Shown: in pieces, positions 12,372 to 23,784 of the stretch
How the letters are laid out: each line of letters opens with the position of its first letter
Numbering within the stretch: the first letter of the stretch is position 1
Assembly: GCA_004376645.1 (NCBI GenBank)
Contig: SOJC01000040.1
Coordinates: forward strand, 1 to 32,754
Length of the DNA: 32,754 nt
Source of the DNA: Candidatus Bathyarchaeota archaeon
GTDB taxonomy: Archaea; Thermoproteota; Bathyarchaeia; Bathyarchaeales; SOJC01
Direction of reading: 5' to 3'
The notes under the pieces: model-generated
The model's database searches: none
What the model was told of the DNA's origin: nothing
The model's input: only the letters and a program-made list of their open reading frames with translations
Position numbers and translations under genes: made by a program

Positions 12372-14285
12372 ATGTCCTCAACTTCGCTCGGTAACACAGT
12401 GAGGAGAACAAGCGAACTGCTCAGAAAAGGTGCGGCTGAACAGATCTTGGAATATGAGAGACGCAAAAAACCTCTGCAGGCTCTCTATGAATGTTTCATA
12501 TCAGAACATATTGTGTCCAACTTCAGCAATCAAAGAGCGTACGAAACTGCTCAGGACTTCTTCGGCTCCCCCTCCATCAGCTTCGCTGCCATCGATGGCA
12601 CAATGTACGTTCGCCCCCTCTACGACCTGATAATATTCTTTGGTGGAGCTTACGCATCCACAGGATCAATCACATTTACCCCAACTTCCTTACCAACCAT
12701 CCAATACGACGCAAAAACAATTGAGAAAGGCGCAGGAATCTCCAGTGTCGTCCCCGTCTACATCAGTGAAGTTCCAGACATCGACCAGACGTTCTTTAGC
12801 GAAGAACAGCCTGGCGAAATCGCAACCAACAAACCGTTACAAGACAGTGCCATAATAAGCAACACTACAATTGCCAATTGGATAATGTCCTTCGCCGAAT
12901 ACTATCTAGCCTACAGATTCGCCACCGATCAAAGCCAAAACTTACATGTTATACTCTTAGATAGAAGCCTCTCCAACGAGCTAGCTAGCCTTCTCTATGA
13001 CACTTCAAAGAGAGAATTGTGGGAATCCAGATGCACCCTAATCGGCTACAGAATCAACAACACGACCATAGACCGCAACGATCTCTCTCTCGGACGGCAC
13101 CGTCTTCAAAACTATAAATTGAATATCCCTCCTCCAAGAGGTGTCTACCTCAACTCTGCGATATTTGACCTAATTCGAGAGAAAGGCCCCATTCAAAAAA
13201 GTCAGATCCTGCAGAATCTGAAAATAACAGATAATGAAAGAGCGAGAAGGGTAGGAAGATACCTCACAAGGTTAATGAGTGAAAAGATCATTTTGGAAAG
13301 AGACCACACATACGTTATCTCGGAGAAATACGCGACAACATGGCCAAGACTCAAGAAACTAGTTGACATAATAGGCAACCGTCTCTTCTATGGCAAAGGA
13401 ACTGAATCCACTTCTTCGAGCAACCTTCTAAAGATTAAGAAAGAAGGCAAAGACTATTGGCTCACAACCTTGGACATTGCCTTCCTTACTCTCTTCACTT
13501 TCCAGATGCTAATCGAAGAGTGTTGGAGAAGAAAAATCCTACTCGTGGGCATAACGAAGGACACTGCGGCCAGAGATATGAAACGTCAACTCATCCCAAT
13601 TCTCCACAGGAAAGGCCTGCTGAATCTGACCCGACCTACGGAGTTGTATAGGGATCTTCCTAATACTGACAGAATGATACTTCAATCCATCAGCCTTTTC
13701 AACCCTGAGAAAGTCAAAATCCCGTGGGCGCTGGCTGAGTATGACTCAGCCTTTCGCACTATGGTTCCTGACAATCAGGATTGTGGAGACTATGTGCTAG
13801 GGACAATCAAGAATCGGATAAGCCTTGAGAGGACCTTTCTGAAGACTTACATACAACTGGCACAAGCGAAGAAAGACCCTCTACTACGTAGCAACGTTCT
13901 TCTCATCGACCGGCTTGCATACTCACACTATGACGATGAATCAGAGGTAACCTTTCAGTTCTGGAACAAATTCGATAGTGCACGCGAGCCCCTTGAAGTG
14001 ATAATCTACAAGAACAAGACAACACCTAATCAGATCCAGAACTTAACAATGACAATTCTTCACGCTATGACACCATCAAGCATACCCGAAGCCTTCGGCC
14101 ATAACAAACCTCTCTTCATCGCCGACAAGATTGCCAAGTGGCATTATGGCCAATTCAAACGGATCGCAGACACAACAGCAATATGGATCCTCAACAATCA
14201 TAAATTAAGAAAGTTCGTATTTTACATGAGCACATTCAGAGAAAGGAGAGCCACAATTGAAGCAACAAGAAGAAGAGCAGTATAA
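12372..14285 (+). CDS. nurA: NurA-domain nuclease, long form with internal winged-helix-like insert
   Basis: SISFAAIDGTMYVRPLYDLIIFFGGAYAST (IDG motif), VILLDRSLSNEL (second Asp motif), C-terminal PEAFGHNKPLFIADKIAKW typical of NurA. Insert: IFDLIREKGPIQKSQILQNLKITDNERARRVGRYLTRLMSEKIILERDHTYVIS. Confidence 0.75.
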   Translation: MSSTSLGNTVRRTSELLRKGAAEQILEYERRKKPLQALYECFISEHIVSNFSNQRAYETAQDFFGSPSISFAAIDGTMYVRPLYDLIIFFGGAYASTGSITFTPTSLPTIQYDAKTIEKGAGISSVVPVYISEVPDIDQTFFSEEQPGEIATNKPLQDSAIISNTTIANWIMSFAEYYLAYRFATDQSQNLHVILLDRSLSNELASLLYDTSKRELWESRCTLIGYRINNTTIDRNDLSLGRHRLQNYKLNIPPPRGVYLNSAIFDLIREKGPIQKSQILQNLKITDNERARRVGRYLTRLMSEKIILERDHTYVISEKYATTWPRLKKLVDIIGNRLFYGKGTESTSSSNLLKIKKEGKDYWLTTLDIAFLTLFTFQMLIEECWRRKILLVGITKDTAARDMKRQLIPILHRKGLLNLTRPTELYRDLPNTDRMILQSISLFNPEKVKIPWALAEYDSAFRTMVPDNQDCGDYVLGTIKNRISLERTFLKTYIQLAQAKKDPLLRSNVLLIDRLAYSHYDDESEVTFQFWNKFDSAREPLEVIIYKNKTTPNQIQNLTMTILHAMTPSSIPEAFGHNKPLFIADKIAKWHYGQFKRIADTTAIWILNNHKLRKFVFYMSTFRERRATIEATRRRAV

Positions 14286-16146
14286 GGAAGCTTGCTTCAC
14301 AGACTTCAACGGGAAGTTCCACGCCCGGTTGATCAATGTCTTCCCCCGCCAACTCGGCAGTTCAAAAGACTCCAGATTCTCAGGTATAAGTTCAAGGTAC
14401 GAAGCCCGAATAAAGGTGGAATACCAAAAAGACCTCATGGGGCTACTAGAAGAAGGGATGCTTCTAGCCATTCCCAACTTCAAAAAAACTGAACCTGACT
14501 TTGAAAGGTTCACTCTAGTAGAGATCAGCAGGGTCTGGCCTGAACATTTCGGCTTAAAGGGACTCTCAGATCACAGCTACTACCCAATGTTATTCGAAAT
14601 TATAGAACAGTCAGAAGCAGATTGGCAAACCAACGATAAGGCCACAATGGTCATACAGATAAGTGCCATCCCAATAAATTACGACCTCACGATCCACTCC
14701 AATGGCAACTGCAAATTCACCAAAGGCTTTAGCTATCCAATAATAGCCAGCTCGGCCTACATCCTCAACAGCAGCCTGATAAATCACATGTATAATCAGA
14801 GGATAACCGAAAAAATCGCCACAGTCCCCATTGAAACAACACAGAATGCAAAACAAGATCCTCGATTAGGCACAGTGAGAATGTTCCAAACGAGCGAGAA
14901 GGCAATTCCAATCTATATAGATTTCGAAAACCTTTCACGTCATCATTTCGGCGTCTTCGCTTTCACCGGAGGCGGCAAGAGCAATCTCATGTCAAACATC
15001 CTCAGACGCATCCTCCTCCACACTAAAGATACAAAGATCATCATCTTTGACATAAGCTGTGAATACGTCTTCCTGCTCCTTGACATTCTCTCAGATCCCT
15101 CGATCCCTTCAAAAGTAATTCTTGAACGCAGAATCGACTCTATGGAGCAATTCTTCAATTCCATAGTGAAGCCCAGAGAATACGAAACCGACAAGAGAAT
15201 TAACAAAGGGCTGCAAAAAATCATGGATCAAGGTAAACTTTCATACTACACAAAACCCAAACAGAAAGTTCCCACCTACACTGGGTTTATCAAAGACTTG
15301 GAAAACCAAAGAAGAGAAAATTTCAGCAAACCCCACTACATAAATGCGATCGACCAAATCGGCGACGCCGTCCTCAAATACGTGGATCAACACGCCCTCA
15401 GCGAAAACCAAGAAGTTGATGAGGAATTCATTCGCTACATAGACTCTACAGCTGCAGAGACCGTTCAAACATTCAAAGTCCACGAAAAAAGCGGGCTATA
15501 CGCCTGGGCTACAACAAGAAATGCTCTACTCGATCTGATAAAGAAAGCTCAAGCAGAAGAGCAGAAAGAAGTTGGCGGACTGACAGTAGACAAAATATGT
15601 GGCTTCCTTGAAGGGGCGACAAGACTCGTCTGTGTTTCCATCGCAGATCCCTTCACGATAAAAGAGCTTGCAATAACCCTTACTGGAAATTTGATAGCTC
15701 GGCGAAAGCGAAGATTCCAAATCAAACCCTACATCCTCTTCGTGTTCGATGAAGCCCAAGAATTCATTCCAGACCTAGGAGGCTCCACAGGCATAGACAA
15801 AAAATGCAGCAAACAAGTTGAAACGTTGCTCAGGCAAGGACGTAAATATGGGCTGGGCGCATGCATTGCCACCCAAAGAATCGCCTACCTCAACACCAAT
15901 GCCCTCCAGCAACTCCACACATATTTTGTAGGCACATTACCTAGACCATACGATCGAGCCCTCGTGAGCAACACATTCATGATAGATCAAGGCATACTGG
16001 AAAAAACTCTTGAATTCGCGCCTGGCGAATGGCTGCTATCAAGCTTCACGGCAACTGGAATAGAGAACGTTCCCATATTCATCCAAGCAGACAACGCCCA
16101 AAACGAAATCAACAATTTCCTCTCAGCCAACAACCATCAATTGTAA
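14257..16146 (+). CDS. herA: HerA-type FtsK/HerA superfamily ATPase
   Basis: FAFTGGGKSNLMSNILRRIL Walker A, YILFVFDEAQEFIPD Walker B, TLLRQGRKYGLGACIATQRIAYLNTNALQQLHTYFVGTLPRPYDRALVS. TTG start overlaps the NurA ORF by 29 nt. Confidence 0.88.
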   Translation: MKQQEEEQYKEACFTDFNGKFHARLINVFPRQLGSSKDSRFSGISSRYEARIKVEYQKDLMGLLEEGMLLAIPNFKKTEPDFERFTLVEISRVWPEHFGLKGLSDHSYYPMLFEIIEQSEADWQTNDKATMVIQISAIPINYDLTIHSNGNCKFTKGFSYPIIASSAYILNSSLINHMYNQRITEKIATVPIETTQNAKQDPRLGTVRMFQTSEKAIPIYIDFENLSRHHFGVFAFTGGGKSNLMSNILRRILLHTKDTKIIIFDISCEYVFLLLDILSDPSIPSKVILERRIDSMEQFFNSIVKPREYETDKRINKGLQKIMDQGKLSYYTKPKQKVPTYTGFIKDLENQRRENFSKPHYINAIDQIGDAVLKYVDQHALSENQEVDEEFIRYIDSTAAETVQTFKVHEKSGLYAWATTRNALLDLIKKAQAEEQKEVGGLTVDKICGFLEGATRLVCVSIADPFTIKELAITLTGNLIARRKRRFQIKPYILFVFDEAQEFIPDLGGSTGIDKKCSKQVETLLRQGRKYGLGACIATQRIAYLNTNALQQLHTYFVGTLPRPYDRALVSNTFMIDQGILEKTLEFAPGEWLLSSFTATGIENVPIFIQADNAQNEINNFLSANNHQL

Positions 16147-17338: not shown

Positions 17339-19651
17339 CTAAAGATTTGGGAGGAAATGGGTGAGTTTTGTGGGTTGATAGCCCCTGATTGCGTCGTAAA
17401 CGTCTTTAGTTGAATAGCTAAAGGGACTCAAAATGTTTGAGGCAGCTGAATAGAGGAGTAGGAGGTATTTTCTAACATCAGAGTTTGTTCCGTCTTCAAT
17501 CAATTCTTCCGCTCTCACCCTTCGGTTATATCTCTTATTTTCCGCACTTGTAAAGACGAATCTAACACTCTTTCCAGCGGATACCTCAACACCTTCCTTC
17601 AAGAGTTGCTCGGCAGCGATTACTTGACTAACTCTCTGTTTGTAGTCTTCCAGATTCTTAGAGAGTCGTTTAGTGACGACTAAATCCCAAATTGGAACTT
17701 CTCCACTTAGCAGCCTGCTTCTGTATTCCTTAACCACGTTCAAAGCATCAGGTATCTTCACAATGACCCCTTTAGAGTCTCCAGCTGCAGCTAACGCTTT
17801 GATCATCGCCATCTGAGCGTCATACACAAACTTCGGAGTATCCCTCCTCCTAACCTCTAGACCCCTGACCTTAATTCTGCCATCTTCTTTTACACCGTAG
17901 TAACGATTTAACACGGCAACATTAGGGTGCTGTTTAGAAGGGAGGAAAACTATCCATCTGTATCTGCCTTCAAAATTTAAAGACACCCCAGTTACCTCAC
18001 TTATCTCCTTACACAAACTGACGTATTCCTGAACTGTTGCATCTTCCTTCTTCAGCCACAACGAATCGACGATGCCGTGGATGACGCTGAATCCTCTCTC
18101 TTCCGCCATGTGAGCAGCCTCTAAAAAAACATGCCTGCCAAAGGCGCAAACACTAATATGTCCGTCAACAGTGCCAAATTTAGCGTTTCTATATCCGAGA
18201 TAGCCAAAACATGTTACTAGAATCCACTTAAGCGCGCCTTGGCGCCTCTCGTAAACTTCCCTTAACTTCGCATCCTTAGCTTGTCGCATCAACTCTTTGT
18301 AACGCTGTCTCTTCGCAATTACAAACTTCAGGGTCTTCGGTATAATTCCCTCTCGTTTCTCGCAGATATTATAGTTGAGTTCTGGTACACGTAAAGTTGA
18401 GGTTGGGCAACACTTGCAGAGAACAGTCTCGGCTGAGATGTTGTTTTTCGCCATCAAAAAAGGGTACATTGATGAAAAATCTACTTCTCCAACTTGATCA
18501 TGGATGCCCATTCTGGGTTCGTAAACGAAGCCACCTCGATCTCCAACTAGCAATTCATAAGCTGATTTAAAAGCCTCTGGAACCCGTTTGTTCCTGGGAA
18601 TTAAGATGCCATTTTTTATGGCTTGGAAAAGCTGGAGGGAAGTCATGCTTGAGCCTATTGAAGAGCGAGAAGCCCTATGCAAGGGTACTCTGCAGGTTCT
18701 AGCAACCTCGATGAGCCCTTCTATACCACATTCAACGAGAATGAAAGTGTTATTCACGTCGATGTGGATTCTGCCATAGAGCCTCCTCGTTGGAGCCCTA
18801 AAGTAGGTTCTGCCATAAGAAAAGTAGGTTTTTCCTTTTCTGTGCCTAGCAACAAGGGGCACATTCTCTCTGCTAAGAACAAACCTGTCTAAAACTCCGT
18901 TAATCGTAGCCCTTCTTGCAAGGTAAGGAAAGATATGTGAATCTCCACCTCTGGTGAGTAAGATGTCTGGATCAAGTTCTCTAACAACTTCTATGAGTTG
19001 TAACAGTTTCTCTTTCTCGTCGCCAGAGGCTATGATAATGGCTTCATCATCTTGAGAAACTGTCACCTCCTTTACAGGATCGTGGAAGCTCGCTATCTTT
19101 TTCTTCTTAGCGACATCTACGTTGATCTTCATAATTCGTAAAGGTGGAATCGAATAGTCAACGCTTTCCACACTGTCTAAGAGACGATATCTTAGTTCTT
19201 GCTTTTCAACTTCGATTTCGGCAAAAGCGAGAGGGAAAATATCCTTGTTGTAAAGATAAGATTGGGTGCTTTGCAAATCGCAGTTATACACTTGAAATCG
19301 TAAGTATCTGCCAATCTCTAAGATTTCATGTACAAAGAACGGGACTCTCCTGCAATCTTTTAATTCAACCTCCAGCACTTTCGACTTTTCAATGTCGGTT
19401 GGACTAACATATCTGTAGACGAACTCAAATGAAGCTATGGATTTATCTAAGAAGAAACGGGTTGAGAGTCTCTCCAAATCCACTACGTTGCCAGAAATGT
19501 AGATTTTAGGCTTGAACTTATCTACGAATCGTATTCTCTCCCCATTCTTAGTGATAACCCAAATGCTCATCTGCCCAAAAGCTGAAGGGTAGATGTCGAA
19601 TATCCAGCCTTCTACATGTTTAGGGTTGGCTGTGTTGCTTTCTAACTGCAT
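17339..19651 (-). CDS. Family B DNA polymerase, PolB2-like divergent/inactivated clade
   Basis: VDFSSMYPFLMAKNNIS motif A; AKRQRYKELMRQAKD...RRQGALKWILVTCFGYLGYRNAKFG motif B region; VIHGIVDSLWLKK motif C region. Exo I region reads LRIMKINVDVA without DxE. Confidence 0.88.
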   Translation of the reverse strand: MQLESNTANPKHVEGWIFDIYPSAFGQMSIWVITKNGERIRFVDKFKPKIYISGNVVDLERLSTRFFLDKSIASFEFVYRYVSPTDIEKSKVLEVELKDCRRVPFFVHEILEIGRYLRFQVYNCDLQSTQSYLYNKDIFPLAFAEIEVEKQELRYRLLDSVESVDYSIPPLRIMKINVDVAKKKKIASFHDPVKEVTVSQDDEAIIIASGDEKEKLLQLIEVVRELDPDILLTRGGDSHIFPYLARRATINGVLDRFVLSRENVPLVARHRKGKTYFSYGRTYFRAPTRRLYGRIHIDVNNTFILVECGIEGLIEVARTCRVPLHRASRSSIGSSMTSLQLFQAIKNGILIPRNKRVPEAFKSAYELLVGDRGGFVYEPRMGIHDQVGEVDFSSMYPFLMAKNNISAETVLCKCCPTSTLRVPELNYNICEKREGIIPKTLKFVIAKRQRYKELMRQAKDAKLREVYERRQGALKWILVTCFGYLGYRNAKFGTVDGHISVCAFGRHVFLEAAHMAEERGFSVIHGIVDSLWLKKEDATVQEYVSLCKEISEVTGVSLNFEGRYRWIVFLPSKQHPNVAVLNRYYGVKEDGRIKVRGLEVRRRDTPKFVYDAQMAMIKALAAAGDSKGVIVKIPDALNVVKEYRSRLLSGEVPIWDLVVTKRLSKNLEDYKQRVSQVIAAEQLLKEGVEVSAGKSVRFVFTSAENKRYNRRVRAEELIEDGTNSDVRKYLLLLYSAASNILSPFSYSTKDVYDAIRGYQPTKLTHFLPNL

Positions 19652-19895
19652 CTAACTCTTTCTCTATTCTGTTCAGCATCTTCTGTTGATGTAAGAGAAT
19701 TGAGAGGATCATGGGCTCGAAGATAATAGGGCGCGTGGCGTTACTTCCTGCAGACGCGTAGCTTCTACATGCATCCATTAGATGATCAAAAGCCTTTCTG
19801 TCTTCTCTGCGTAAGGCTCTTGCAAATCCATTCCACTTCAGTAATTCTCTATCTAATGCTATTCGATAGGACTCCACGGTTTTTCCCATGTTCAC
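19620..19895 (-). CDS. Small helical protein of the PolB2-like cassette (91 aa)
   Basis: ORF overlaps the RecA-like ORF by 4 nt (ATGA-type) and the polymerase ORF by 32 nt: MNMGKTVESYRIALDRELLKWNGFARALRREDRKAFDHLMDACR...FEPMILSILLHQQKMLNRIEKELDAV. Confidence 0.75.
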   Translation of the reverse strand: MNMGKTVESYRIALDRELLKWNGFARALRREDRKAFDHLMDACRSYASAGSNATRPIIFEPMILSILLHQQKMLNRIEKELDAVRKQHSQP

Positions 19896-20608
19896 GCCTC
19901 AAGGAACTCTGCTAAATTTTCTGAATGAAAGTAAGCGCTTCCAGAGTTTAGAAGTGGATGCTTCTCCAGAGTGAATTGCCGGCCATACTTTGAAAGTTCA
20001 ACGGAAGCAACGACGTTGGCACGGCCACAAATTATTGCCTTCAAAAACATGCCTTCTCTCGAAGCCCGATTTGGGAGAAGCGTGGTGACCACAACCATTT
20101 GATTTCTATCAGCAAATTTTGCGAGGTAACTGGTTAACTGGTTGAAGACATCTACTGACTCTCTCTTCGGGACATCCTTGTCAAGGTATAACCGGGCAAT
20201 GTCTGATATTATCACAAGTTTCGAGCGATACTTCTCAACAGTTCTCTGTAACCACTCAAATATCAAAGATGTCATCTGATAAGCTGTGAACGCTCTAGAG
20301 ATGAAAATCCGATTTAAAACATCCATTGGATAAAGCTTGTGAAGCTGAGCGAGGTAAGAAACATCGTATAGCCTGAAGGTGTTTCCTCCATCAACGAATA
20401 TCACATTTGTTTTTAATCCTCCAAGTTGATATGGGAGCTGGGCTCTAACGCAGAGGAGCATGGATAAGGGTAAAATTGCGGATGAGCCGTGAAAGACGGC
20501 GAAGTCGCCTGCGACGAATCCTGGAAAAACATGGTCAACATTTTTGATGTTGAAAGATAATTGGAATTGAGAGGATAAAGTAGTCTTCACTAATGTTCTC
20601 AGCGACAA
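19892..20608 (-). CDS. RecA/RadA-superfamily paralog with degenerate Walker A
   Basis: VFPGFVAGDFAVFHGSSAILPLSMLLCVRAQLP in the Walker A position, NVIFVDGGNTFRLYDVSYLAQ, SKLVIISDIARLYL as Walker B. TTG start. Confidence 0.7.
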   Translation of the reverse strand: MSLRTLVKTTLSSQFQLSFNIKNVDHVFPGFVAGDFAVFHGSSAILPLSMLLCVRAQLPYQLGGLKTNVIFVDGGNTFRLYDVSYLAQLHKLYPMDVLNRIFISRAFTAYQMTSLIFEWLQRTVEKYRSKLVIISDIARLYLDKDVPKRESVDVFNQLTSYLAKFADRNQMVVVTTLLPNRASREGMFLKAIICGRANVVASVELSKYGRQFTLEKHPLLNSGSAYFHSENLAEFLEA

Positions 20609-20771
20609 CTTAACCTGCTTTCTCCTATCGCGAATTAGAAGCTTAGGACTTGTACTCTTCTTAAGGATTTGGTGGAGTGATATATTGGAGAAGGGGAGAC
20701 TGCTAAGTGAAAGTGAAAGTTATGATTAACCTTAATCTACGATGTTGCCAATGTTAACAAGAGGGTGAAGG

Positions 20772-21692
20772 TTGACTGAGTACCTTATTGGAACTGGTGG
20801 CTGGGGCTACTTCAAAGTTCCAAGCAAACCCTCACTAAGAGCCTATTCTGAGCACTTCAACTTTGTAGAAGTCAACTACACCTTTTATGAATATCCAGAC
20901 TCGAGAACTGTTGAGAGATGGCGTCAAACCGTGCCCGACGATTTCACGTTTACAGTTAGATGCCACCAAGACCTAACTCACAAGATAGGGCTGCAATCAA
21001 CAGACGAAGCCATTGAAGTCTTCGGCCGAATGATATGGATCTGCAAGATTCTTGACGCTCCCTTTCTGCATCTGCTAACACCTGCAAATTACTCTCTAGA
21101 CAACAGAAAGATAAGGCAAGCTAGAGATTTATTCTCAACAGCAAACTGGAAAGGAGTTCAACTAGCTTGGGAAGTGAGAAGCACAATAACCCCTAAGCTT
21201 GGTGATTTGATGCGGGACATGGAGATAGTTAACTCAGTTGACCTCTCAAGAGAGAAGTTCCCTCAGAAAACTGATATCATCTACACCAGACTTTTCGGCA
21301 AAGGAAGACACAACATCTACCAGTTCATCGACGAAGAGCTAATGGAGATAGATCAAAGAATACTGAAGGCGGAAGCCAAAACCGCTTTCATAACCTATCA
21401 TGGGGTAAGGATGAATAGTGATGCCTCAAGATTCAAACACTATAAGGAAACCGGACGATTTCTACCTGTATCTGCCTTCACTGGTATAGATTCGATCAGA
21501 TCTGCACTTGAAGAGGATGCTAAGTTTCCATGCACAAAGACAGAGTTGGTCAAGCATCAAGGCTGGAAAGTAGTTGATTTGACAATTGATAAGCGAGTTC
21601 ATCTTTCAAAGATGCTCTCAAAGCTCCATGAAAAGACATATGGCAACATCCAAGAGGTCATCAAAGAATTAGAGGTTTCCACTCTTGAATGA
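20772..21692 (+). CDS. DUF72 (YecE-like TIM-barrel) family protein, divergent copy
   Basis: YLIGTGGWGYFKVPSKPSLRAYSEHFNFVEVNYTFYEYPDSRTVERWRQTVPDDFTFTVRCHQDLTH; TTG start. Confidence 0.8.
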   Translation: MTEYLIGTGGWGYFKVPSKPSLRAYSEHFNFVEVNYTFYEYPDSRTVERWRQTVPDDFTFTVRCHQDLTHKIGLQSTDEAIEVFGRMIWICKILDAPFLHLLTPANYSLDNRKIRQARDLFSTANWKGVQLAWEVRSTITPKLGDLMRDMEIVNSVDLSREKFPQKTDIIYTRLFGKGRHNIYQFIDEELMEIDQRILKAEAKTAFITYHGVRMNSDASRFKHYKETGRFLPVSAFTGIDSIRSALEEDAKFPCTKTELVKHQGWKVVDLTIDKRVHLSKMLSKLHEKTYGNIQEVIKELEVSTLE

Positions 21693-22503
21693 AAGCAACA
21701 TTTCGCTAGGTACTTCTGGGTGGAGCTACAAAGAATGGGAGCAATCATTCTATAGAAAGGGAGAGAAATCCAAGCTTCGGGCCTACTCGCGAATCTTCTC
21801 AACTGTCGAAATTGATTCAACTTGGTATAGGTATCCTTCAAAGGGAATGGTGATAGGATGGCTACGTTATTCTCCCTCAGATTTCGTGTTTACAGCCAAA
21901 ATGCCTAAGGTTATAACTCATGAAAAGATGCTTGGCCTCAAAGACGATGTCAAAAAGGATTTGGAAGCATTTCTGGAGATCATGCAGCCTCTGCAATTAA
22001 ATGGGAAACTAGGATGCCTTCTGATCCAGCTCCCCCCTAGCTATGAGTACAATCCTGAAAACTTGGAAGAATTCTTCGAGTCTCTCTCTCCTCAATTCAA
22101 ATTCGCCATCGAATTCCGAAACCTCTCCTGGATGCGAGAAGAAACTTGGGCACTGCTGAAGAAGTACAATGTTGCGTATACCAATGTGGACGAACCACTT
22201 CTGCCACCCGAAATTCACATCACAGCCGACTTCACCTATTTCCGCTGGCATGGAAGAGGACGAAAGCCTTGGTTCAACTATCTATACAAGAAGGAAGAAC
22301 TTGAACCATGGATCCCAAAGATTCAAGAAGCATCCAAACAAGTTCGCAGAGTATATGGATACTTCAACAATCATTTCCATGGCTACGCTCCCGAAAATTG
22401 TCTATCTCTGATCGAGAAGATAATGCCACTAACGCCCAAACAAAAGGAAGCTAAGAGAAGAATTAGCAAGAGGCAAGTGGGTCTTACCAGCTTTTTCGAA
22501 TAA
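21685..22503 (+). CDS. DUF72 (YecE-like TIM-barrel) family protein
   Basis: ISLGTSGWSYKEWEQSFY...FSTVEIDSTWYRYPSKGMVIGWLRYSPSDFVFTAKMPKVITHEK...FAIEFRNLSW...RRVYGYFNNHFHGYAPENC. Overlaps the previous ORF by 8 nt. Confidence 0.88.
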   Translation: MNESNISLGTSGWSYKEWEQSFYRKGEKSKLRAYSRIFSTVEIDSTWYRYPSKGMVIGWLRYSPSDFVFTAKMPKVITHEKMLGLKDDVKKDLEAFLEIMQPLQLNGKLGCLLIQLPPSYEYNPENLEEFFESLSPQFKFAIEFRNLSWMREETWALLKKYNVAYTNVDEPLLPPEIHITADFTYFRWHGRGRKPWFNYLYKKEELEPWIPKIQEASKQVRRVYGYFNNHFHGYAPENCLSLIEKIMPLTPKQKEAKRRISKRQVGLTSFFE

Positions 22504-22566: not shown

Positions 22567-23784
22567 TCATGACCGTCGCAATTCATAACTATCGGTTTCA
22601 TGAATGTAATGTAGCTTTCCAGTTTTCACTGATTCTGACAAACCAATTTCAACCTCGTCTTTGCTGAATCTTCTCAAGCTGCTGCATGTTGCAGAAATCA
22701 GCCAGTTTCGAGGATATGTGAATCCCGGTTTTACGTTTGTCATAAGCTCTCTGGCACATTCACCCAGTCTCTCTGACGCGAAAATCTTCGATTCTCCTGT
22801 GACAATCTTCATATCCTTCGTAAGCGGTGAAGATGGGATGTGCAGGGTTCTTTGAATTTTCTTGGCGAGAGCCATTTTTGATTTGCGGTTGCCATGACAA
22901 GTAAAGACGACTTTTGGTCTAGCCTCTTCCACATACTCGAGTAAACGGTAGAAGTCTGAGTGGTCGCTTAAACAGAAGGCTTTTCTCCTTCCTGAAAATC
23001 TGGAGCCCCAACCTGACACGAACGCTGCTTTGAACTCGGGTCTACCCCGTAAGTCAACGTTCTTTGGCAGTATAAGCGTGCATTCTTTTCCGTCAAGAAC
23101 CTCTTTGCCTTCTTTGCAGTTTTGGTCCAAGTACTCTAGCTTATGCCCAAATTCTCCATAGATGTTATTGTAGTTAGAAACTTTAGGATGAGTTATTACA
23201 GGAATATTAGTCAGTCTGTTTAGTAGTGCGATGAGTTCTTGAGCGTTCCCTAAGGCATCAGTTTGAAAAGCCGGTATCTTACCAGTCTTAATCGTATAGT
23301 TTGTCCATTTTGCGATTCTTTCATACATATACTCTTTAGAAGGAAAATAACAGGGAGTTCCATAAGTTGATTCGATGATCAGGATGTCACATGGTACAAC
23401 TTCTGCTCTCTTTATCAACAATGTGTCCCTGAAGTTGATGTCACCAGTATAGACAACATTTCCCAAAGGAGAAATTATCTCATATTGGGTTGAGCCTAAA
23501 ATGTGTCCGGCATTGTGGGCTTCAACCTCAACATCACCGAACACAATTTTCTCGCCATATTCAACGAAGTGATGATTCTTAGCTTTTCCACAGGAAACCT
23601 GGGCCAAGGCGAAGGTGGCTTGTGTGGAATACGCTTCGTCGACCAACTTCAACTTGCCACAGTGATCACCATGGGCGTGAGATATGAAAACAGGACTGTC
23701 TGATCTTCTTACTGCATCCAGAACAACTTGGGTGTCCTTAAACAGAACTTCGATTCCATTGGTCCGTCTGATGGAAAAAGCCAT
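22567..23784 (-). CDS. MBL-fold beta-CASP exonuclease/endonuclease-like protein (YSH1/SNM1-like)
   Basis: 405 aa; VFISHAHGDHCGKL, NAGHILGSTQYEI, VVYTGDINFRD, IIESTYGTP, LSDHSDFYRLLEYV, FTCHGN; C-terminal helical extension. Confidence 0.85.
   Translation of the reverse strand: MAFSIRRTNGIEVLFKDTQVVLDAVRRSDSPVFISHAHGDHCGKLKLVDEAYSTQATFALAQVSCGKAKNHHFVEYGEKIVFGDVEVEAHNAGHILGSTQYEIISPLGNVVYTGDINFRDTLLIKRAEVVPCDILIIESTYGTPCYFPSKEYMYERIAKWTNYTIKTGKIPAFQTDALGNAQELIALLNRLTNIPVITHPKVSNYNNIYGEFGHKLEYLDQNCKEGKEVLDGKECTLILPKNVDLRGRPEFKAAFVSGWGSRFSGRRKAFCLSDHSDFYRLLEYVEEARPKVVFTCHGNRKSKMALAKKIQRTLHIPSSPLTKDMKIVTGESKIFASERLGECARELMTNVKPGFTYPRNWLISATCSSLRRFSKDEVEIGLSESVKTGKLHYIHETDSYELRRS

Follow-up and report, generated by a model that had tools for sequence, protein, structure and literature searches.

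A probable PolB2 mutasome of Bathyarchaeia and a promoter box that it shares with radA

Introduction

The closest described counterpart of the locus studied here is the archaeal PolB2 mutasome. The operon is known from work of Makarova and colleagues in 2014 (PMC4104785), and a heteropentameric complex was modelled by Timinskas and colleagues in 2025, who argue for its likeness to bacterial Pol V and report DUF72 genes as enriched neighbors (PMC11791011). The S. islandicus PolB2 protein, Dpo2, is reported to be active, damage-inducible and needed for targeted mutagenesis (PMC11791011, PMC7390963, PMC8764526).

Bacterial Pol V (UmuD'2C-RecA) and the ImuA-ImuB-DnaE2 system similarly combine an error-prone polymerase with a RecA-fold partner and a small subunit, but their polymerases and small subunits belong to other families and the operons are not homologous. 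With regard to regulation, the bacterial SOS (LexA) and PafBC regulons are the functional counterparts of a system in which a recombinase and a mutasome would be controlled through one box. On a limited check, we know of no defined archaeal damage regulon outside the Sulfolobales. In that order, the Orc1-2/ANTTTC damage element is a hexamer that occupies positions -39 to -44 relative to the start site and immediately precedes the BRE/TATA (PMC5817253, PMC9738581).

Here we describe a Bathyarchaeota locus by its gene identities, lost catalytic residues and gene order, and by a promoter box with a fixed TATA spacing that recurs at other genes. It resembles the published mutasome (Timinskas 2025, Makarova 2014; S. 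islandicus Dpo2) in having the same three genes in the same order, a PolB2 that lost a DxD aspartate and its exonuclease, an ATPase-dead RadA, a small protein with an MG[KR]T arm, and a nearby DUF72 gene. Unlike the published systems, it has in the window's family a tandem DUF72 pair placed divergently beside the cassette, tails on iRadA and on PolB2 that weakly resemble clamp motifs, and a promoter box for which we found no description.

Results and Discussion

Gene content and order of the locus

The window, that is, the whole 32,754-nt stretch of DNA analyzed, is contig C19 of a source genome of 1.25 Mb in 142 contigs. The following features were assigned:

17339-19651, minus strand: PolB2 of polymerase family B; motif C is HGIVDS and the exonuclease motifs are lost
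17342-17374, minus strand: PolB2 C-terminus PTKLTHFLPNL, possibly a weak PCNA-binding tail (resemblance only)
19620-19889, minus strand: PPB2 (arCOG07300), small helical partner with N-terminus MGKT
19892-20608, minus strand: iRadA, RadA/Rad51 core with the ATPase site lost, TTG start
19895-19924, minus strand: possible PCNA-binding tail of iRadA, SENLAEFLEA (resemblance only)
20659-20664, minus strand: TATA-like element TTAAGA, 30 nt past the box
20695-20718, minus strand: promoter box TTTCACTTTCACTTAGCAGTCTCC, with a footprint in 17/24 mutasome promoters and also at radA and other genes
20772-21692, plus strand: DUF72 protein a (Pfam DUF72, 7.2e-27), divergent from the mutasome
21685-22503, plus strand: DUF72-like protein b, tandem to a, which it overlaps by 8 nt; recurs beside the mutasome in 10 loci

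An earlier note on this DNA had listed three minus-strand ORFs, which were found in the window with the coordinates and strand claimed. Pfam profiles identified Rad51 in 19892-20608 (E 1.6e-12) and DNA_pol_B in 17339-19651 (E 1.1e-40), and matched no family in the 91-aa protein between them. Among related Bathyarchaeia, a gene-neighborhood survey recovered the iRadA-PPB2-PolB2 order in approximately 25 loci, so that the arrangement is not a chance one. The locus extends beyond 20608, previously taken as its upstream end, since it also includes the promoter at 20659-20718 and the divergently oriented DUF72 genes at 20772-22503.

Two overlaps had been claimed within the cassette. The 32-nt overlap of PPB2 and PolB2 stands; most members of the family have it at precisely this length, a conservation consistent with coupled translation. 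The 4-nt overlap of iRadA and PPB2 does not stand, because it depended on taking GTG at 19895 as the start of the 91-aa ORF. In the alignment, 12/12 PPB2 orthologs open with a start codon (ATG, GTG or TTG) followed by GKT or GRT, which points to ATG 19889, two codons further on at the conserved MGKT, as the likely start and leaves a 2-nt gap between the two genes.

The PolB2 polymerase

IQ-TREE was used to infer a maximum likelihood phylogeny from 47 archaeal family B polymerases of these genomes. As the earlier note had suspected, the window polymerase falls in the PolB2 clade, with 100/100 support, and not in PolB1 or PolB3; the PolB3 clade is likewise supported at 100/100. PolB2 and PolB3 are joined opposite PolB1 as sister groups, and PolB2 is also separate from a group of short B polymerases.

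Motif A (DFSSMYP) of the PolB2 protein is intact. Motif C reads HGIVDS in the window and its relatives versus YGDTDS in PolB1 and PolB3, and its first aspartate is replaced by isoleucine in 21/21 aligned mutasome PolB2 proteins. The exonuclease sites are lost (INV for DIE in ExoI, GGDSH in ExoII, ExoIII lost). Three positions are invariant in the alignment: the motif A aspartate, the last aspartate of motif C and the motif B lysine. At a candidate position for the D(K/R) loop, the motif expected to contact PPB2, relatives have SRDK or SREN. The C-terminal tail (TKLTHFLPNL in the window) resembles the PCNA-binding tails found on other B polymerases of these genomes (MKLTEWF, GLTKLERFM), a resemblance only. 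A PADLOC homing-endonuclease match of PolB2 was set aside, as it falls on the polymerase domain.

The iRadA and PPB2 partners

In the phmmer alignment to RadA, both the GKT and the Walker B aspartate of iRadA are replaced. The protein has only 238 aa and is missing the N-terminal helical domain of RadA. Its AlphaFold model (pTM 0.82) was matched by Foldseek to RAD51/RadA (E ~1e-14, TMq ~0.77), which bears out the proposal of a RecA-like pseudo-ATPase: a Rad51/RadA core fold with the Walker A and B residues gone. Most iRadA orthologs end in a C-terminal L-x-x-F-hydrophobic tail (NLTLTEFMEA and similar), identified by eye, with a similar resemblance to those PCNA-binding tails and no more than a resemblance. 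PCNA motifs are described as rare in both iRadA and PolB2 (PMC11791011). In one genome (G034, locus L194), iRadA has its own box, and PPB2 and PolB2 were not detected.

The small partner has the properties of PPB2, being a helical protein of about 90 aa with an MG[KR]T N-terminus that adjoins PolB2 and iRadA. Positions M1, G2, T4, S7, Y8 and R9 are invariant among the 12 orthologs, and the N-terminal arm, named MGRT, is described as highly conserved in PMC11791011. Members of this family are expected to form a trimer and, together with PolB2 and iRadA, a heteropentamer. The predicted model is all-helical and of modest confidence (pTM 0.44), and a comparison of it with the PDB gave no structural match. 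PADLOC found no defense-system match for iRadA or PPB2. The names PolB2, iRadA and PPB2 were assigned because the tree, the motifs, the lost ATPase residues and the fold match the properties of these families.

PPB2 is present in 65/199 sampled genomes of the class. Five loci (L096, L100, L103, L104, L106) have PPB2-PolB2 without an adjacent iRadA. Four genomes (G177, G172, G140, G166) contain 3-7 PPB2 matches each, mostly on separate contigs, which suggests amplification of the mutasome or mobile copies.

The promoter box and its TATA element

The box TTTCACTTTMACTNANCTCTCYCC is located upstream of the cassette at 20695-20718, with a TATA element ~30 nt downstream; a repeat in the divergent intergenic region turned out to be part of it. 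The sequence TTTCACTTTCAC was found upstream of iRadA with at most two mismatches in 17 of the 24 loci, representing several families, against a mean of 1.0 and a maximum of 7 loci in Markov-shuffled sequences. Apart from the box, the upstream region of the window contains no 12-mer common to more than 8 loci.

A search of 41 genomes with the box model (A4, R1) identified further copies elsewhere, most of them intergenic. Recurrent targets are radA, a family of 80-84-aa proteins, a family of 108-118-aa proteins, PPB2-like genes, stand-alone or second iRadA genes, and an RNA of ~92 nt; one copy lies upstream of an ADP-ribosylglycohydrolase gene. With two mismatches allowed, the pattern TCACTTTMACTNNNCTCTCYCC gave 63 matches in the 41 genomes versus 12 for the reversed pattern, a comparison that is partly circular because TCACTTTMACTNNNCTCTCYCC was drawn from the same genomes.

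Two tests escape this circularity. A matrix trained solely on mutasome promoters found sites of at least 8 bits in 15/28 radA upstream regions, versus 3 for the reversed matrix and 1 on the opposite strand; in families f3, f5 and f9 the box at radA is absent or very weak. The other test is the spacing to the TATA element, which lies outside the box model: TTWAAD occurs 23-40 nt past the box in 34 of the 46 non-mutasome sites that score 15 bits or more, compared with a background of 3.2%, and in 0/6 sites of the reversed matrix. The distance from the end of the box to TATA is about 25-34 nt. The box gives no more than 6 matches per genome at two mismatches; being rare and found repeatedly at radA and the mutasome, it is not a general promoter element.

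In the window's own genome, the probable box members are radA (C134; weak, 8.5 bits), an 84-aa gene (C69:17125), a 109-aa gene (C28:10702) and the RNA (C115:8060). The 12-mer GTGAAAGTGAAA alone revealed no regulon in this genome (22 matches versus 17 in the control), and the signal needs the full box.

Judged by sequence, the box-TATA unit looks like a Bathyarchaeia-wide regulon that is probably responsive to DNA damage. Like the Sulfolobales element, it is a cis-element above TATA, and the window box contains ACTTTC. It differs in its length of ~24 nt, in ending 25-34 nt above TATA, and in reading ACTTTA in many copies. We did not accept the box as the ANTTTC element, and membership in the Orc1-2/ANTTTC regulon is not claimed, because the hexamer is unconserved in other copies and the distance to TATA is different. 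As for the bacterial regulons, no LexA-type palindrome is present here and the promoter is an archaeal TATA promoter.

Small proteins and a candidate small RNA behind the box

The 80-84-aa family carries VNLHLKDGSVIINV and is found behind the box in L169, L181, L193 (the 84-aa gene of the own genome) and others, often preceded by a Cys-rich ORF of ~60 aa; it had no match in Pfam or NCBIfam. The 108-118-aa family (..IYVYYENGNGEPIPIYCD..MMFVLSFHP..) lies directly behind the box in six genomes (L174, L180, L195, L198 (the 109-aa gene of the own genome), L203, L204) and received no confident family assignment.

The box target without a clear ORF is a ~92-nt RNA candidate at 7 loci in six genomes of the window's family (G000:C115 (L197), L191, L237, L238, L239, L242, L244). 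It is closed by a 12-13 bp stem, GCTTGCGGTTCA...TGAATCGCAAGC, and contains the conserved TTCAC(A/G)AATGCAC; in all loci its 3' end falls 166-180 nt past the box start. Covariation is slight: in four sequences, one pair differs on both sides and another changes between U-A and U-G; a further locus has A-U in place of the G-U pair. Neither the window nor the RNA loci had a match in Rfam. In two genomes (G003 and G007) the RNA lies ~0.85 kb upstream of a gene for a DinB-type polymerase.

Proposed function and alternatives

The interpretation of such a protein cassette is already published; the loci described here extend this known mutasome family with well-tested members from Bathyarchaeia. We consider it highly probable that the cassette is a PolB2 mutasome for translesion synthesis, in which an extender polymerase acts with iRadA and PPB2 under a box promoter shared with radA. 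The earlier note had pictured an archaeal translesion or repair module with dedicated partners, and the PolB2 clade, the iRadA without Walker residues, the MG[KR]T of PPB2 and the conserved adjacency support this; its guess that the association had been noticed before was also right, with the operon in PMC4104785 and the Pol V-like model in PMC11791011. We infer that the proteins form a complex in the Bathyarchaeota host; they may also bind the clamp, and damage may induce them through the box.

The earlier note had also called the PolB2 clade apparently inactivated, a view that is now out of date. It corresponds to the reading of Makarova 2014, in which PolB2 is catalytically dead and iRadA-PPB2-PolB2 would have a non-catalytic role in regulating replication or stalled forks (PMC4104785). 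The isoleucine in 21/21 motifs C and the lost exonuclease agree with that reading, but the three invariant residues of motifs A, B and C would be needless in a dead enzyme, and S. islandicus Dpo2, with the same kind of substitution (IID), is reported as an active extender (PMC11791011, PMC8764526), which makes a dead PolB2 very improbable. It is unlikely, to a lesser degree, that the module mainly extends D-loops with RadA instead of performing classical bypass, with iRadA capping or interrupting RadA filaments and passing the 3' end to PolB2. Such a role would suit both the RadA-fold subunit and the promoter box common to the cassette and radA; however, PolB2 was modelled as binding iRadA, not RadA, and the Dpo2 genetics indicate targeted mutagenesis, both according to PMC11791011.

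A further alternative concerns the box alone and leaves the mutasome identity unaffected: it could be a growth-phase, redox or other promoter element and not a damage signal. No inducer is known and several box-linked genes are without known function, so this alternative retains some weight, but the rarity of the box and its repeated presence at radA and the mutasome argue against it and we regard it as the less probable one. Returning to the damage-responsive reading, since radA and the other targets carry the same promoter unit, recombination and error-prone bypass are probably switched on together, most likely after damage. We lean, with reserve, toward an SOS-like regulon of Bathyarchaeia in which the box-TATA unit controls the mutasome, radA, two small-protein families and a structured RNA, bypass and recombination are co-induced, and the regulator has no relation to LexA and may also differ from Orc1-2.

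Under this proposal, damage or stalled forks would activate a regulator; once bound to the box above TATA, it would induce radA jointly with the mutasome. iRadA would probably dock on PolB2 through a contact like that in RadA filaments, its C-terminal tail may tether the complex to PCNA, PPB2 would place its MGKT arm near the active site, and PolB2 with iRadA and PPB2 bound would extend past lesions. The coding part of this scheme draws on the published biochemistry of the relative, and the co-regulation on the shared box.

The shared box, the radA link and the small RNA were not found described in the searchable literature, on a limited check, and the box has apparently not been described before. 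Throughout a mostly uncultured class, a single cis-element would thereby connect a mutasome with a recombinase, with small proteins of unknown function and with an RNA. The 24-bp box suffices as bait for the regulator, and the box-linked small proteins are concrete candidates for damage-response factors.

Other B polymerases and neighboring genes

In four genomes (G012, G007, G011, G005), pieces from the 3' end of PolB2 stand isolated at other sites (L018, L050, L061, L062); some contain stop codons, and they are probably decayed second copies. Short B polymerases of 614-648 aa, sister to PolB1, were found at L003 (own genome, C109), L055-L058, L063 and L064. Their exonuclease domain is deleted, YGDTDS is intact and the tail is of PCNA type (MKLTEWF), which makes them candidates for another error-prone polymerase. 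Bathyarchaeia PolB3 (L019-L032, L059) has lost the ExoI Asp/Glu (FSIICYS for DIE), and DTD is retained. Those members of f6 and of the window's family that carry a mutasome yielded no PolB3; the mutual exclusion of PolB2 and PolB3 hinted at by these two families fails in f7, where many genomes have both.

In the window's family the tandem DUF72 pair is head to head with the cassette, and the 10 loci with this pair include two more distant ones, L033 and L105. Given that DUF72 was an enriched neighbor in PMC11791011, the divergent pair is a tighter version of a known link. On the other side, at 12372-16146, a HerA-like ATPase (PADLOC HerA, 2.4e-39) overlaps an uncharacterized 637-aa ORF, convergent with the cassette; in relatives neither is conserved beside the mutasome. 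The DUF72 pair is adjoined at 22567-23784 by a metallo-beta-lactamase/RMMBL nuclease that resembles TIGR04122, the family of ligase-associated damage-response exonucleases (146 bits, below the cut-off of 325). An RMMBL nuclease is also found beside the DUF72 pair in L041.
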